DNA of 64,000 bases from Gemmatimonadota bacterium (GCA_016874005.1 VGVQ01000013.1:1-64000), one strand, 5' to 3'. Shown: positions 40,437 to 46,881, counted from the stretch's first letter. Notes: generated from the sequence alone by a model not told the origin. Numbers and translations: made by a program.

Positions 40437-41702
40437 TCAGTTGCGGCGCCGCAGCCAGTCGGTGGGGTCGAGCGCGATCTGGTTGTCGCCGCGAATCTCG
40501 AGGTAGAGATGCGGTCCTTCCGGGGTGTTCGACCCGCCCACGGTCCCGATCGGCTGGCCCTTGGCGACCTCGGTGCCGACCGCCACCGAGGCGGTGCTGA
40601 GCTGCATGTAGAGCGAGAAGTAGCCGCTTGGATGTTCCACGATCACCGAAAGACCGTAGGTGCCCAACCGCTGCACCAGGACCACCCTGCCGGCGGAAAC
40701 CGTCGTGACCGGGGTCCCGGCCGCCGCCGAGATCGCGATGCCGTGCCGGTTGATCCGCGCGCCACTCGGCAGGGTGTCCGGTCCGAAGTCGTAGAGGATC
40801 CGGCCGTTGACCGGCCAATCCAGCCGGCCAAGATCGGCCGTCGACATCCCGGCTCCGGTGTTGCCGCGCGAGGCGGCGCCGGACCCCGCGTTCGGGGCGG
40901 GTCTGGCCGTGTTCCGCCGCGCCCGCTCGAGCGCCGCCAGAACGTCGATCAGGTTTTCCTCGTCGCGGGCGAGCGTGCTCAATCGTCGATTGGTGGACTG
41001 GGTGGTTGCCCGGAGCCGGCGCAACTGGGTCGACCGCTCCTCCGCCAGCTGACGGTAGCTCCGGAGTTCGGCCTCGCGCTCGGTGCGACGGCGATCGAGC
41101 TGCTCCTGGACGGTGACCAGCTCGCCCCGTTGCGCCTGGATGCGATTGCGGAGCCGCTCCACGTCGGTAACCAGGGCGCGGTCCTGCCGGCTGGTCAGAT
41201 AGAGGTACTTGTATCGCGAGAGAAGGTCGGAAAACGACTCGGCCGCCAGCAACACCTGGAAGGTATGCAACGCGCCCCGCTTGTAGATATCCACCAGCCG
41301 GCGCTCCAGCACGGCGCGCCGGTCCACCAGGTTGTCTTCCGCGAGGGCCAGTTGGACCGCGGTGTTGTCGAGCTGGGAGCCGAGGCCACCGATCTGCCGC
41401 TCCAACTCGTTGACGATCCGATTGGTGGTCTCTCGCTGCCGTTCGAGGTTGTCCAACTCGCGTCCCGCGTCGCGAACCTGACCTTGGAGTCGTTCCTGTT
41501 CCTGACGGAGCCGCTCCCGTTCGGCCCGGATCTCCTCGAGCCGGCGCCGGCTCCGCTCCAAATCGGGTTGCTGGGCCGCGAGCTGCGAGCCGGCGGGTCG
41601 ACCTGACCCCTGCCCGGCGAATTCGGGGATGGTGGGCGCCGCGGCGAGCGCGACCACGGCCAGGGCGCCTGAGACGAGCTTTCCGCGGCAGCGGCCCGCC
41701 AT
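40437..41702 (-). CDS. Murein hydrolase activator EnvC-like (coiled coil plus M23/LytM domain)
   Basis: Long coiled coil EEIRAERERLRQEQERLQGQ...; C-terminal GISAAAGTPVTTVSAGRVV-like LytM fold with YGLSVIVEHPSGYFSLYMQL...GPHLYLEIR. Confidence 0.88.
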   Translation of the reverse strand: MAGRCRGKLVSGALAVVALAAAPTIPEFAGQGSGRPAGSQLAAQQPDLERSRRRLEEIRAERERLRQEQERLQGQVRDAGRELDNLERQRETTNRIVNELERQIGGLGSQLDNTAVQLALAEDNLVDRRAVLERRLVDIYKRGALHTFQVLLAAESFSDLLSRYKYLYLTSRQDRALVTDVERLRNRIQAQRGELVTVQEQLDRRRTEREAELRSYRQLAEERSTQLRRLRATTQSTNRRLSTLARDEENLIDVLAALERARRNTARPAPNAGSGAASRGNTGAGMSTADLGRLDWPVNGRILYDFGPDTLPSGARINRHGIAISAAAGTPVTTVSAGRVVLVQRLGTYGLSVIVEHPSGYFSLYMQLSTASVAVGTEVAKGQPIGTVGGSNTPEGPHLYLEIRGDNQIALDPTDWLRRRN

Positions 41703-41703
41703 C

Positions 41704-42579
41704 TCAGACGGCCCGGAGCTGCCGCCCCACCGACAAGACGCTGCCGCCGAGGCCGATCACCGTCCCGAACACCAGGAACAACAGCATCTGGAGGCCGCCG
41801 AAGAACACCAGCGCGTCCCCCGCGGCCGTGGTGCTGGTTCGGAATATCGTGAAGGTTGCCCAGCACATCGCGATGGCGAGGAGCCCGCCCGAGATTCCCT
41901 TGATGGCGCCTTCCAGCAGGAACGGGCCGCGGATGTATCGGTTGGTGGCCCCGACCAGCCGCATGATCGAGATCTCCTTGGCCCGTTGGAGCACGGTGAT
42001 GCGGATGGTCACACCGATGATGACGATGGCCACCGCCGCGAAGGCCAGCCCGATCACCAGTCCCACAACCGCCGCCATGTTGCGGAGTTTGTCGAGACGC
42101 TCGACCCAGTCCCGCCCGTACCTGACGTCCTCCACGAAGGGAAAGCCCCGGACCCGTTCCGCCACCCGCTGGGCGCTTTCGGCGTCGCGGGCCTCCGGCT
42201 TGAGCCGGATCTCGAACGATGCCGGAAGGGGGTTCACGGCGAGGTCCCGGTAGGCTTCCCGGAATTCCACCAGCTCGCGGCGGGCTCGGCCGAGCGCTTG
42301 TTCCTCGGTCACGTAGCTGACGTCGAGGACCTCGGGGAACGCGGTGATGTCCTGTGAAGCCGTGCTGATCGTCTCGGTCGGGGTGCCGCGGAGTACGAAG
42401 GCGACCACCTCGACCCGTTCGGCGAGATCCTGGAGGGCTTTCTGGAAGTTGATCGCCACCAGTCCGAACAACCCGATGGTGAACAACGAAAAGCCGATCG
42501 AGGCGACCGAGAGCCCGCTCAAGAGCGGGGTCCGCCGGAAGGTCATCAGGGCTTCGCGGAGGGGGGTGCGGTGCTTCAC
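41704..42579 (-). CDS. ftsX: Cell division protein FtsX
   Basis: Four TM segments, periplasmic loop with PLPASFEIRLKPEARDAESAQRVAERVRGFPFVEDVRYG. Confidence 0.92.
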   Translation of the reverse strand: MKHRTPLREALMTFRRTPLLSGLSVASIGFSLFTIGLFGLVAINFQKALQDLAERVEVVAFVLRGTPTETISTASQDITAFPEVLDVSYVTEEQALGRARRELVEFREAYRDLAVNPLPASFEIRLKPEARDAESAQRVAERVRGFPFVEDVRYGRDWVERLDKLRNMAAVVGLVIGLAFAAVAIVIIGVTIRITVLQRAKEISIMRLVGATNRYIRGPFLLEGAIKGISGGLLAIAMCWATFTIFRTSTTAAGDALVFFGGLQMLLFLVFGTVIGLGGSVLSVGRQLRAV

Positions 42580-43265
42580 GATTCCGCTCCGGCGGCCTGA
42601 TCGACGCCACTGTCGTAGACCACTCGGCCACCCTTGAGTTCGATGGTTCGGTACCCGGTGTCGCGGACCAATTCCATGTTGTGGGTCGCCATCACCACCA
42701 CGGTGCCGCCCGCGTTGATCTCGCGAAGCAACTGGAAGACGCCTCGGGTCGCCCGTTCGTCGAGGTTTCCGGTGGGCTCGTCCGCCACCAGGATGTGGGG
42801 ATCGTTCACCAGCGCCCGCGCGATGGCCACCCGCTGCTGCTCGCCTCCCGACAGCTCCTTGGGATACGCCCGGGCCTTGGATGCCAGCCCGACCTGGGTC
42901 AACACCCGCATCACCCGGTTGGGAATCGTCTCCTTCCGGGCCCCGGTCACCTCCAGCGCGAATGCTACGTTCTCCTCGACGGTGTGGTACTCGAGAAGCC
43001 GGAAGTCCTGGAACACCACCCCGAGCTGCCGCCGAAGCCGGGGGATATCGTTGGGGCCGAGCTTGCTGATCTGGTAACCGGAGACCCGCACCTCGCCTTC
43101 GGTGGGGCGCTGTTCGGCGTAGATCAGCGAGAGGATCGAGGATTTGCCTGCCCCGGAGTGGCCGGTGAGAAAGACGAACTCGCCCTTCGGGATCTGGAAG
43201 GACACGTCCTTGAGCCCGGACGCGCCGTTAGGGTAGGTCTTGGTGGCGTGGAGGAACCGAATCAT
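42576..43265 (-). CDS. ftsE: Cell division ATP-binding protein FtsE
   Basis: TGHSGAGKSSILSLI Walker A, FQDFRLLEYHTVEENVAFAL, LSGGEQQRVAIARALVNDPHILVADEPTGNLD. Confidence 0.96.
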   Translation of the reverse strand: MIRFLHATKTYPNGASGLKDVSFQIPKGEFVFLTGHSGAGKSSILSLIYAEQRPTEGEVRVSGYQISKLGPNDIPRLRRQLGVVFQDFRLLEYHTVEENVAFALEVTGARKETIPNRVMRVLTQVGLASKARAYPKELSGGEQQRVAIARALVNDPHILVADEPTGNLDERATRGVFQLLREINAGGTVVVMATHNMELVRDTGYRTIELKGGRVVYDSGVDQAAGAES

Positions 43266-44419
43266 ACGCCATCGAGCGCGTGACGGAGGTCGGCGATCAG
43301 ATCGGCGGCGTTCTCGATTCCGGCGCTGAGCCGAACGTATCCGTCGGGAATTCCCATCGCGGCACGGGCCTCCGCCGACATGCCCTTGTGCGAGGTCAAC
43401 CGTGGCTCGGAGACCAGGCTTTCCACTCCGGCCAGACTCGGGGCGTGGGCCACGATCTCGAGCCGCCGCAAGAACCGCTCCGCGGCCTCCGGTCCTCCCT
43501 TGATGACGAGGCCAACCATCCCGCCGAATCCCGAGAGCAGACGGCTGGCGAGCTCGTGGTCCGGGTGGCTCGGCAGCCCCGGGTAATGGACCGCCGCGAT
43601 GGCCGGATGCTGGCTGGCCCACTGCGCGATCGCCAGGCCGTTGGCGTTTTGCCGTTCGACTCGCAGCTCGAGAGTCTTCATCCCCCGATCGAGCAGCCAG
43701 GCCGAGTGTGAGTTCAGCGTCGACCCCCAGAGCCGAGCCAGCCGGGTGACCTCGTCGATGACCGACTGGGTCCCGGCTACCACGCCGGCGGTTACGTCGG
43801 AATGGCCGTTGAGGTACTTGGTCCCGCTGGTGATCACCACGTCGGCGCCGTGCTCGATCGGTCGGAAGTTGATCGGGCTCGCGAAGGTGCTATCGACCAG
43901 AAGCGCCACCCCTTGCTCGCGGCAGATCTGCACCACCGTCTTCGGGTCGACCACCCGCATGGTGGGGTTGACCGGGCTCTCGAAGAAGACCGCCCGAGTG
44001 TTGCGGGTCAGTGCCTTTCGCCAAGCTCGCGGCTGGTCCGGGTCGACGTAGGTCACCGAGATTCCGAACCGGCCGAACTCCTCGTCGAACAGCCGCCGGG
44101 TCCCTCCGTATATCCAGCGGCTGGCGACCAGGCGATCCCCCGGTCGGAGCACCGCGAGGTGCGCCATGGCCGTGGCGGCCATTCCGCTCGCGACGAAGAC
44201 GGCCGCCTCGGCGCCCTCGAGCAGGGCGTACTTCCGAGCCACGGCGAGCTGATTGGGGGTATTGCCGTAGCGCTCGTAGAGGACCTCTCGCTCGGCCCCG
44301 ACCTCGGCGACATAGGTAGTGCTCTGGAACACCGGCTGCACCACCGGTTCGTTCGGATGGTGCCGACCGAGTGGGCCGTGGACGGCGACGGTGGAGCGGC
44401 CGGGCTGGGAGTCGTTCAT
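43262..44419 (-). CDS. Cys/Met metabolism PLP-dependent enzyme (cystathionine gamma-synthase/lyase family)
   Basis: YERYGNTPNQLAVARKYALLEGAEAAVFVASGMAA, SGTKYLNGHSDVTAGVV PLP-lysine motif, RLSAGIENAADLIADL. Confidence 0.93.
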   Translation of the reverse strand: MNDSQPGRSTVAVHGPLGRHHPNEPVVQPVFQSTTYVAEVGAEREVLYERYGNTPNQLAVARKYALLEGAEAAVFVASGMAATAMAHLAVLRPGDRLVASRWIYGGTRRLFDEEFGRFGISVTYVDPDQPRAWRKALTRNTRAVFFESPVNPTMRVVDPKTVVQICREQGVALLVDSTFASPINFRPIEHGADVVITSGTKYLNGHSDVTAGVVAGTQSVIDEVTRLARLWGSTLNSHSAWLLDRGMKTLELRVERQNANGLAIAQWASQHPAIAAVHYPGLPSHPDHELASRLLSGFGGMVGLVIKGGPEAAERFLRRLEIVAHAPSLAGVESLVSEPRLTSHKGMSAEARAAMGIPDGYVRLSAGIENAADLIADLRHALDGV

Positions 44420-44958
44420 GCCGTCGGGAGCGGCCGGAAGGTCCCGCTCGCGGCCTGGATCAGGCCGCGGAGCGCGAGCGACTGGAGGGCGTCGGCGGCC
44501 CGCTCGATGGTCCAGCCCACCAGGTCCGCCAGCCGCCCGGTGTCTCCCGCGCCAAGCTTGTTGACCGCTTCGAACGCGGTGACCAGGTCCGGCGTCCGCC
44601 ACCCGAGGATGCACGGGGTGGCTCGCTCGGCGGGCACCGCCATGACGGTCAACTGATGGGTTTCGAGGACCTGCTCGATGGCGTCGAGGTGGCTGTCCGA
44701 GACGTTCACCAGGACCACGAACCGAGGTCGCTCGCCCGGGGGGCGGAGCAGCAGCTTCGCCACCACTTCGTCGGCGCAGGAGAAATCGATCAAGCCGATC
44801 TGGGAAAAGTCGAGCTGGGTCGTGGGGTGGGGGCTCTGGTCGATCCGTTCCTCCACCCGACCGCGCACGGTGGCCCCGGTCGGCCGAGTGACCAGGTGGC
44901 AATAGGGTGTCGGCACCGCCTCCCGCAGAATCGGCCCCAGATCGATCCGTTCCCTCAT
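44416..44958 (-). CDS. STAS-like (DUF4325-like) protein with putative C-terminal winged-helix-like region
   Basis: TTQLDFSQIGLIDFSCADEVVAKLLL STAS-like segment; C-terminal AVNKLGAGDTGRLADLVGWTIERAADALQSLALRGLIQAASGTFRPL resembles wHTH. Confidence 0.6.
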   Translation of the reverse strand: MRERIDLGPILREAVPTPYCHLVTRPTGATVRGRVEERIDQSPHPTTQLDFSQIGLIDFSCADEVVAKLLLRPPGERPRFVVLVNVSDSHLDAIEQVLETHQLTVMAVPAERATPCILGWRTPDLVTAFEAVNKLGAGDTGRLADLVGWTIERAADALQSLALRGLIQAASGTFRPLPTA

Positions 44959-45854
44959 CGTCCGCTCGGCTCCTGTGCTGGAATCGTGATCTGCAGCTGC
45001 GTGCCTGGAAAGAAAGGTAGATGCTCCGCCAAGGGCACGTCGTCGTCCCATTCTGCCCCGACCGACAATCGGGCGGTCCCGCTCCGGATCGAGATCTTCC
45101 CGTGCCATCGGGCCAGATACCGTTTGATGCCCGCCAGCCCCTGGCCGCGGCCGGGATCGGGGAAGCGGCTCACGCCGTGGAGCAGGGCTGACTCGAGCGC
45201 CGCCCCATCGCTCCATCGTTCCCCGACCTTGCGCGCCTCGGTGGCATCGAGCGATTTCCGAAACCCGATCCCGGCGTCCCCGACAGCGATGACGACCACC
45301 TTGCGACCGAGTCGGCGCTTCCAGAAATAGGTCTGGACCGCAACCCAGCCGCCTGTCCCGGCGTGCTCGACCACGTTCTGACAGGCCTCCGACAGGGCCA
45401 TCGCGAAACCCATCGTCGCCTTGGCCTCGAGTTTGAGTTCGGAGGTGAGGATCCGGGTGGCGGACTCCTGGACCTTCCCGACCACGTGGTGAATGTCCTC
45501 GGCGGCCCGGATCGGGGTGAGCGGCAGGAGCACGTCGGTGGCATCGCCGGCCCGGCGGGGGATCTTGCCGACCACGTCGTAGTACTCGACGGCATGCCGA
45601 AAGAACCCGGTTCGGGCCCAGTAGGACCTGGCGTCGTCGCTGGCGGGGGCGTTGAACTGCGGCTTGGGGCGGCCGAGTTCCTTGATCGCCTGGCCCAGGG
45701 TGAGGAGCGAGGCCAGTCCGTAGGGAGAAGCCCAAGTGGTACCGTGCCCGTCCACCAAGAGGCGTTCCGGAGGCGGCCAGCTGCCCAATCCCTGCGCGAG
45801 GGCGTCGAGCGACTTGTCGTCGAGGCTGGTCGGCACTGGAACGACGTGCATCAT
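44955..45854 (-). CDS. ATP-binding protein: STAS-like N-terminus fused to GHKL/HATPase_c domain
   Basis: N-box ALSEACQNVVEHA, G1 VGDAGIGF, G2 GRGQGLAGIK; N-terminal ERLLVDGHGTTWASPYGLASLLTLG STAS-like. Confidence 0.75.
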   Translation of the reverse strand: MMHVVPVPTSLDDKSLDALAQGLGSWPPPERLLVDGHGTTWASPYGLASLLTLGQAIKELGRPKPQFNAPASDDARSYWARTGFFRHAVEYYDVVGKIPRRAGDATDVLLPLTPIRAAEDIHHVVGKVQESATRILTSELKLEAKATMGFAMALSEACQNVVEHAGTGGWVAVQTYFWKRRLGRKVVVIAVGDAGIGFRKSLDATEARKVGERWSDGAALESALLHGVSRFPDPGRGQGLAGIKRYLARWHGKISIRSGTARLSVGAEWDDDVPLAEHLPFFPGTQLQITIPAQEPSGR

Positions 45855-45957
45855 GTGGGTGCGGGCTGTCCTCGAGAGATGGGCGACGGGCGTGGCCTGC
45901 GAGCAAAAGTAGTCACGGTCGGCGTTTCTCAGGAGTCTCGGGCGGTGTGCTCCGGTC

Positions 45958-46881
45958 TCATGGGGTGACCAGCGAGCCTCGAAGGTGCTGCACCAATCCA
46001 CTCGCGCCTCGATAGCCGGCGTTTCGCGCGGCCGCGCGGTTGCCGAGCGCCACCGCCTGTTCGAGCGGGACGCCGGCCAGCAAGTGGGCGAAGGTGGTTG
46101 CCCCGAACACGTCGCCGCAACCGGTGGGATCGATGGCGTCGACGGCCGGGGCGGGGACCAGGGCGGTCCGGGCCGCCACGGTGCTGCCCGGCTCGGGCGC
46201 CGCGACATAGATGGTTCCCCGGGCGCCGACGGTCACCAGGAGACCCCGGACCCCGACGCTCATGGCCTGGGTGGCGACCGCGAGCGGATCGGGACCCACC
46301 ATCCGCATCTCGGCCTCGTTCATCTGGATGTAGTCGAACGCCGAGAACCAGCCCACCGGATCGAGCAGGGGCTGGAGCATCCGGGTCCCATCGAAGCCCA
46401 TCCCGAAGAAGAGACTGTGGAGGTCGGCGTAGAGCGCTCCGCGGAACCCCGCCCGGAGCGCCTGGGCGGTCCCCAGGGGCATCTCGAAGCCGGAAATGAA
46501 GTTGAGGTAGATGGCGTCGAGGTCGGCCACCAGTGGGCCCAACTCGTCCCAGCGCCATGGCGGCACCCCGCCGGACATCCGCTCGCAGCGGCGCTCGGCG
46601 TCCTGGTACCGGAGCACGACCCGGTTGTTGGGCGTCGCCACCTCGATGAACCGCGCCTCGGCGCTGCGGTGCCGCAGCGAGCGGAGGAACCGGTCCGCCT
46701 CGACCGCCAGGTCGCGGCCCACCTTGACGAGCGGGACGACCTCCCAGTCGCTGCCTAACGCGGCGTCGAACCCGGCCAGGGCGTAGGCGATCCCCCCCCA
46801 TTCCTCGACCGGCGCCTCCGACGGATCGCGGCCGTGGATCTGATCCCACACCAGCGAGCCGACCACACCGACCTTAGGCAT
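45958..46881 (-). CDS. PfkB-family carbohydrate kinase
   Basis: N-terminal VVGSLVWDQI, C-terminal DAIDPTGCGDVFGATTFAHLLAG. Confidence 0.88.
   Translation of the reverse strand: MPKVGVVGSLVWDQIHGRDPSEAPVEEWGGIAYALAGFDAALGSDWEVVPLVKVGRDLAVEADRFLRSLRHRSAEARFIEVATPNNRVVLRYQDAERRCERMSGGVPPWRWDELGPLVADLDAIYLNFISGFEMPLGTAQALRAGFRGALYADLHSLFFGMGFDGTRMLQPLLDPVGWFSAFDYIQMNEAEMRMVGPDPLAVATQAMSVGVRGLLVTVGARGTIYVAAPEPGSTVAARTALVPAPAVDAIDPTGCGDVFGATTFAHLLAGVPLEQAVALGNRAAARNAGYRGASGLVQHLRGSLVTP

Follow-up and report, generated by a model that had tools for sequence, protein, structure and literature searches.

The gene run and the P1-P2 pair

A 64,000-nt stretch of DNA of a Gemmatimonadota bacterium (GCA_016874005.1 VGVQ01000013.1:1-64000), from here on the window, contains a run of six minus-strand open reading frames (ORFs), the first two of which encode the proteins under study, P1 and P2. 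The genes of a pyridoxal phosphate (PLP)-dependent enzyme, of FtsE, of FtsX and of an EnvC-like protein follow, and that of a PfkB-family sugar kinase precedes them (table 1). P1 and P2 are proposed, with a probability of about 0.7, to form a two-protein switch like the characterised CapK/CapS pair, in which P1 would be the kinase and Ser60 of P2 the site of phosphorylation.

Table 1. Features of the P1-P2 region, in positions of the window.
Feature	Position	Strand	Description
P1	44955..45854	-	299 aa; STAS-like + GHKL (HATPase_c); CapK-like predicted serine kinase
P2	44416..44958	-	180 aa; STAS-like (DUF4325-like) 1-120 + winged helix 123-176; predicted CapS-like substrate
P2 conserved core, residues 22-64	44767..44895	-	LVTRPTG motif (22-28) to D58-F-S60-C-A-D-E64, the predicted phosphorylation loop
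Cys/Met-metabolism PLP enzyme	43262..44419	-	Cystathionine gamma-synthase/lyase type; Pfam PF01053, 403 bits
ftsE	42576..43265	-	TIGR02673, 287.9 bits (cut-off 264.85)
ftsX	41704..42579	-	FtsX_ECD and FtsX Pfam matches; TIGR00439, E 1.4e-65
envC-like M23 gene, coiled coil	40437..41702	-	EnvC PRK11637, E 9.8e-31, under equivalog cut-off
PfkB-family sugar kinase gene	45958..46881	-	Directly upstream of P1; Pfam PfkB, E 4.2e-14

Overlaps of 4 bp join P1 to P2, P2 to the PLP gene and the PLP gene to ftsE (by ATGA in each case) and ftsE to ftsX (by GTGA), while the ATG of envC comes 1 bp after the ftsX stop codon; the six coupled ORFs of an earlier, sequence-only reading of this DNA proved correct in coordinates and junctions on re-reading. 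The loci of 140 relatives were also compared, the window's own genes being the ones tracked among them. P2 was found directly after P1 in 135 of 137 testable loci, which places the coupled P1-P2 arrangement far beyond chance, and overlapping it in 108 of 138, figures for gene gaps depending on the automatic choice of start codons, so that values such as -1164 and -954, due to mis-set ORF starts or ends, were disregarded. The pair was seen to be split in just two loci, by approximately 1.3 kb in L080 and 0.5 kb in L081.

Domains and folds of P1 and P2

The HATPase_c domain of P1 scores above the Pfam cut-off (E 4.7e-7), with recognizable N (E156/N160/H164), G1 (D193xG195xG197) and G2 (R236-GQG-L240) boxes, and N160 is among the 33 invariant columns of a 63-row alignment of P1 orthologues. 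The N-terminal part is STAS-like, as indicated by STAS_2 matches in 17 of the 63 orthologues (best, 1.2e-5) and by the AlphaFold2 model, which was obtained from the same alignment and is confident throughout (predicted local distance difference test, pLDDT, 94.0). In Foldseek the kinase domain falls among GHKL proteins, CheA P4 included, and P1 weakly resembles RsbA and RsbW models. Membership of DISARM, raised by a PADLOC match to DrmA, was not accepted, the match being confined to the HATPase region.

P2 of the window has no family match of its own in domain libraries. Among its orthologues DUF4325 is matched by 14 of 69 (best E 0.0012, all scores being weak) and STAS_2 by 4 of 69, while TrmB, MarR and HTH_20 matches mark a C-terminal winged helix. 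The AlphaFold2 model (pLDDT 95.9, 69 orthologues) ends in the helix-helix-helix-strand-strand succession, and Foldseek retrieved the two-domain Csa3 (with weak overall superposition), RsbS (6jhk), SpoIIAA (1tid) and many winged helices, those found by Foldseek and Pfam being the DNA-binding domains of MarR, IclR and TrmB proteins. With PF14213 (DUF4325) the P2 N-domain shares an LDF...ADE pattern and the weak scores of the orthologues; it differs in scoring below the Pfam gathering cut-off and in forming, together with a winged helix, a protein of its own. The confident models, with STAS and winged-helix folds, and the orthologue domain matches bear out the architectures that the sequence-only reading had assigned, namely a STAS-like N-terminus with an intact HATPase_c domain in P1 and a STAS-like domain with a C-terminal winged helix in P2.

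Ten columns are invariant in P2 (T24, R25, T27, G28, R32, D58, S60, C61, A62 and E64), with S60 present in 69 of 69 orthologues and retained, along with its neighbours, in every P2 form that was aligned or read. Across orthologues the winged helix is far more variable, its majority residue having a mean frequency of 0.40, as against 0.65 in the STAS core (residues 18-72).

Homology to CapK and CapS

CapK is a kinase made of a helix-turn-helix (HTH) domain, a STAS domain and a GHKL domain, and CapS is a repressor with a STAS domain and a winged HTH (Chambers et al., EMBO J, June 2026; PMC13373217). CapK phosphorylates S54 of CapS, a residue hidden in the interface of the CapS dimer, and thereby breaks the dimer; N218 of CapK is needed for phosphorylation, deletion of the N-terminal HTH of CapK has no effect, and the pair controls antiviral operons (PMC13373217). 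Single-stranded DNA (ssDNA) is bound through an aromatic residue, W68 in CapK and F54 in VapK (PMC13373217).

Plain sequence searches of P1 and P2 against the PDB gave nothing useful, and profiles were needed; three CapK/CapS pairs from plasmids served as the comparison set for profile-profile alignment by hhalign. The P1 family matches CapK with a probability of 98.2% (E 3.2e-14) over 267 columns spanning STAS and GHKL domains, a score above that of the HATPase-only match to DUF4325 fusions (150 columns, E 1.5e-8). The P2 family matches CapS with a probability of 89.5% (E 2e-6) over 150 columns across STAS and winged HTH, from a 69-sequence against a 3-sequence profile, and the best PDB match of the P2 profile is a CapS structure, 9z71, the one chain matched across both domains. 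At the residue level, CapS G21, D52, S54 and E58 fall on the P2 invariants G28, D58, S60 and E64, and CapK E214, N218 and H222, with the G boxes, fall on P1 invariants, N218 on N160. As judged from these profiles and aligned residues, the P1/P2 pair is homologous to CapK/CapS across both domains.

The likeness extends to gene order, with the kinase gene first and the substrate gene next, to the STAS-GHKL and STAS-winged HTH architectures, to the catalytic Asn and the substrate Ser, and to the equal size of the substrates. The differences are that P1 and its orthologues start at the STAS domain, and hence have no N-terminal HTH, that P1 lacks the conserved ssDNA-binding Trp, that P2 lacks the DNA contacts of CapS and has often lost its winged helix, and that the pair is core chromosomal, with sugar kinase genes beside it and ftsEX, too, in one order, where CapK/CapS has immune operons. 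VapK/VapS of vapKSC (PMC13373217) are closer in two respects, VapK being a STAS-GHKL kinase without HTH and the substrate STAS protein, with its reduced C-terminus, resembling the 120-150 aa forms of P2; unlike in vapKSC, no vapC was noticed beside the window's pair, the relatives not having been systematically searched for it.

Three observations weigh against a CapK/CapS-like switch. BLASTP of P2 against CapS gave no match. CapK W68 aligns with position 10 of P1, which is mostly Ser, Thr, Gln or His and aromatic in only about 4 of 63 sequences, although position 11 is Leu in 65% and Phe in 35%, so that a one-residue shift of the alignment would partly rescue the aromatic. Finally, the run contains no PP2C phosphatase gene to reset the switch; nor is one described in the CapKS paper (PMC13373217). 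On balance, an ATP-dependent kinase-substrate switch, as predicted from the homology, is well supported for P1/P2. The switch proposed by the sequence-only reading is now tied to the CapK/CapS precedent and is upheld by the homology and by the conserved catalytic and phospho-acceptor residues, whereas its second part, a direct DNA-binding output, is weakened to a possibility by the low conservation of the winged helix, from which the DNA-contact residues of CapS are missing and which several lineages have in reduced form or not at all.

HATPase and DUF4325 domains are fused in one chain in two proteins of the phylum, L101 and L102, which suggests that these domain types work together, although P1 has closer relatives than these fusions. 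The L102 fusion has, in addition, an N-terminus of STAS-like appearance. Its gene (L102:403-1746; STAS-like/HATPase/DUF4325) adjoins an opposite-strand gene (1761-2318) with an ImmA/IrrE-like metalloprotease motif MAHELGHLVLHE, and the two may represent a stress or defence cassette.

The winged helix and the output of P2

Of the CapS residues that contact DNA, N145 and K151 align with the variable P2 positions 153 and 159 (Arg in 39%, Glu in 32%), and for the wing contacts G169 and G170 a wing glycine is present in at most 39% of P2 orthologues. The winged helix is cut to approximately 30 residues in 25 of the 125 P2 proteins that were classed on the tree, a large subclade among them, and is missing altogether from two proteins of genus g39 (L195 and L196; 120 aa), so that its state changed at least 5 times. 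In L142, L144, L151 and similar loci P2 has 140-152 aa and keeps just the last helix and the wing of this domain; the Ser60 loop is retained in these as in the 120-aa forms. The net charge of the winged helix was tried as a discriminator and discarded (-2 to +3 in CapS proteins, 0 in P2 of the window).

These features bear on the possibility that P2 is a DNA-binding autoregulator like CapS, that is, that it represses the PLP-ftsEX-envC run as a dimer until phosphorylation releases it. The CapS precedent (PMC13373217), the confidently modelled winged helix of the window's P2 and the Foldseek and Pfam matches to MarR, IclR and TrmB DNA-binding domains would agree with such a role. However, besides the variable residues at the N145 and K151 positions and the reduction or loss of the domain in several lineages, space for a promoter or operator is wanting: in 117 of 131 relatives the PfkB gene, which of all genes accompanies the pair most constantly in the class, runs 4 bp or 1 bp into P1 and leaves none directly upstream, and in the window, where the two genes are instead 103 bp apart (45855-45957), an inverted repeat or promoter-like site was looked for in the gap and none was found. 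Autoregulation of this kind is thus considered rather unlikely.

A similarly low likelihood is attached to classical partner switching, with P1 as an anti-sigma kinase, or a kinase that binds another effector, P2 as the anti-anti-sigma factor and the effector encoded elsewhere. As in SpoIIAB/SpoIIAA and RsbT/RsbS, a GHKL kinase would have a STAS protein as its substrate, RsbS and SpoIIAA are among the fold matches of P2, P1 is weakly similar to RsbA/RsbW models, and where the winged helix is absent P2 is a bare STAS-like protein. On the other hand, P1 has an additional STAS-like domain of its own and matches CapK over two domains, P2 of the window carries a winged helix, and a sigma factor or PP2C phosphatase gene is neither present in the run nor seen as a constant neighbour, within the limits that only the window's genes were tracked and remote sites were not searched.

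Distribution and inheritance

P2 was surveyed in 295 phylum genomes that are >=90% complete and P1 in 150 sampled genomes, the searches for both covering Gemmatimonadota, plasmids and phages. P2 is present in 286 of 295 genomes (approx. 97%) and P1 in 141 of 150; the phylum's other class (family f9) is without P1 and, save for one marginal exception, without P2. From GTDB contigs 80 relatives were retained, every one of them from Gemmatimonadota. The pair is a core, chromosomal and vertically inherited component across almost the whole class that holds Gemmatimonadales. A mobile origin was rejected, since neither protein had a match among 72,556 plasmids and the phage search yielded just one weak, HATPase-only match. 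The latter is gp32 of the temperate Gordonia phage Phishy (L215:2072-2923), three genes from the integrase and 35% identical to P1 over half of its length.

The neighbours found in the window and its relatives are lepA, GT9, ROK, PfkB, PLP and ftsEX-envC genes, and no immune operon was seen among them. A defence-linked CapKS/VapKS module that senses ssDNA would be in keeping with the homology to CapK and CapS and with the basic cluster R180/R181/R184 of P1, which aligns near CapK K239 and its neighbours, close to the corresponding groove. The class-wide vertical inheritance, the want of plasmid relatives and of an adjoining immune operon, the absence of an aromatic at the W68 position and of the N-terminal HTH make this explanation highly improbable.

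No literature on P1/P2 proteins in Gemmatimonadota was found, that on DUF4325 consists of incidental mentions, and the main text of the CapK/CapS paper (PMC13373217) does not mention Gemmatimonadota. The CapK/CapS switch itself is known (PMC13373217), and what is new here is a core, non-defence CapKS-like pair. It is so called because it shares the architecture and the two key residues and lacks the kinase HTH, the ssDNA-binding aromatic, the DNA contacts and the immune neighbourhood.

The ftsEX-envC link

The genes downstream of P2 were identified from family models. FtsE is the only protein of the genome above its equivalog cut-off, and FtsX scores 221 bits against 255 for the Gram-negative model, yet contains both Pfam domains; by these measures the genes are genuine ftsE and ftsX, together with an EnvC-like gene. 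The product of the PLP gene, which matches cystathionine gamma-lyases of the PDB down to 1.5e-83, is by its sequence an ordinary enzyme of the cystathionine gamma-synthase/lyase type. It is a frequent but not constant third gene, being absent from the run in L063, L066 and several other orders.

ftsE lies downstream of the pair in 78 of 100 testable loci, namely in all those of families f1-f3, which make up the window's order, and in none of f4-f7, a distribution that requires one change on the P1 tree, in the window's order. In other orders ftsE and ftsX are found elsewhere, the distance being approximately 470 kb in G106 and 286 kb in G149, for example. G070, G089 and G101, three family f5 genomes each consisting of a single contig, have the pair but gave no FtsE at E<=1e-75 and, in the FtsX search, generic permease matches only, which possibly reflects a real loss of the FtsEX division system.

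A role of the pair as regulator of FtsEX-EnvC and of cell-wall cutting at the septum, a tie suggested by the sequence-only reading, would fit the overlapping run of the window and of every testable locus of its order. The single linkage event, the distant ftsEX genes of other orders and the three genomes with P1-P2 and no detectable ftsEX leave the proposal without support as a general rule and make it very unlikely. The comparison of neighbourhoods confirms the link within the order and fails to extend it to f4-f7; it is a later addition, belonging to the gene arrangement of one order, and a caution against reading the ftsEX neighbourhood as function.

Proposed mechanism

In the mechanism that homology and residue conservation point to, P1 would be a GHKL-fold serine kinase whose STAS-like N-domain is probably a sensor, with the interdomain groove as the binding site of a ligand or partner. 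The input probably differs from the ssDNA of CapK, because the ssDNA-stacking W68 aligns with Ser, Thr, Gln or His. Active P1, on contact with P2, would phosphorylate it on Ser60, the counterpart of the CapS dimer-interface serine, and so change its binding. Where the winged helix is complete, as in the window's lineage, P2 may act on DNA in one of its forms. As the winged helix was repeatedly lost and the STAS loop is invariant, the output that is conserved is more likely a switch between protein partners or between dimer states; DNA binding would then be optional or secondary. A role in the control of FtsEX is not needed, and in the window's order the pair may at most be co-transcribed with ftsEX.

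A broader proposal, which we put forward tentatively and hold at somewhat less than even odds, is that of a housekeeping CapKS-type switch, core to the class and maybe an ancestral-type relative of the immune regulators, which would respond to an input other than ssDNA and would have kept the Ser60 loop while shedding the DNA-binding domain, its link with sugar-kinase genes (PfkB, ROK) being older than that with ftsEX-envC. The presence of the pair in approximately 97% of sampled genomes of the phylum suggests that the CapK/CapS-type kinase-substrate design also serves in an ordinary, non-defence role, and a class-core pair provides a setting for asking about the original signal and output of CapKS-type switches. 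At present P2 has no family match, and P1 just that of a generic ATPase domain.

Other observations on the run

The EnvC-like protein has apparently lost its M23 zinc ligands (HGIAI, YMQLS and PHLYLEIR being found in the corresponding motifs), as in non-catalytic amidase activators. P2 and the PLP gene of family f2 are mostly 300-390 bp apart, and in L195 this gap is occupied by a coupled ORF of approximately 107 aa (L195:7424-7747), with a weak match to a molybdopterin-dinucleotide-binding domain (Pfam E 0.0013).

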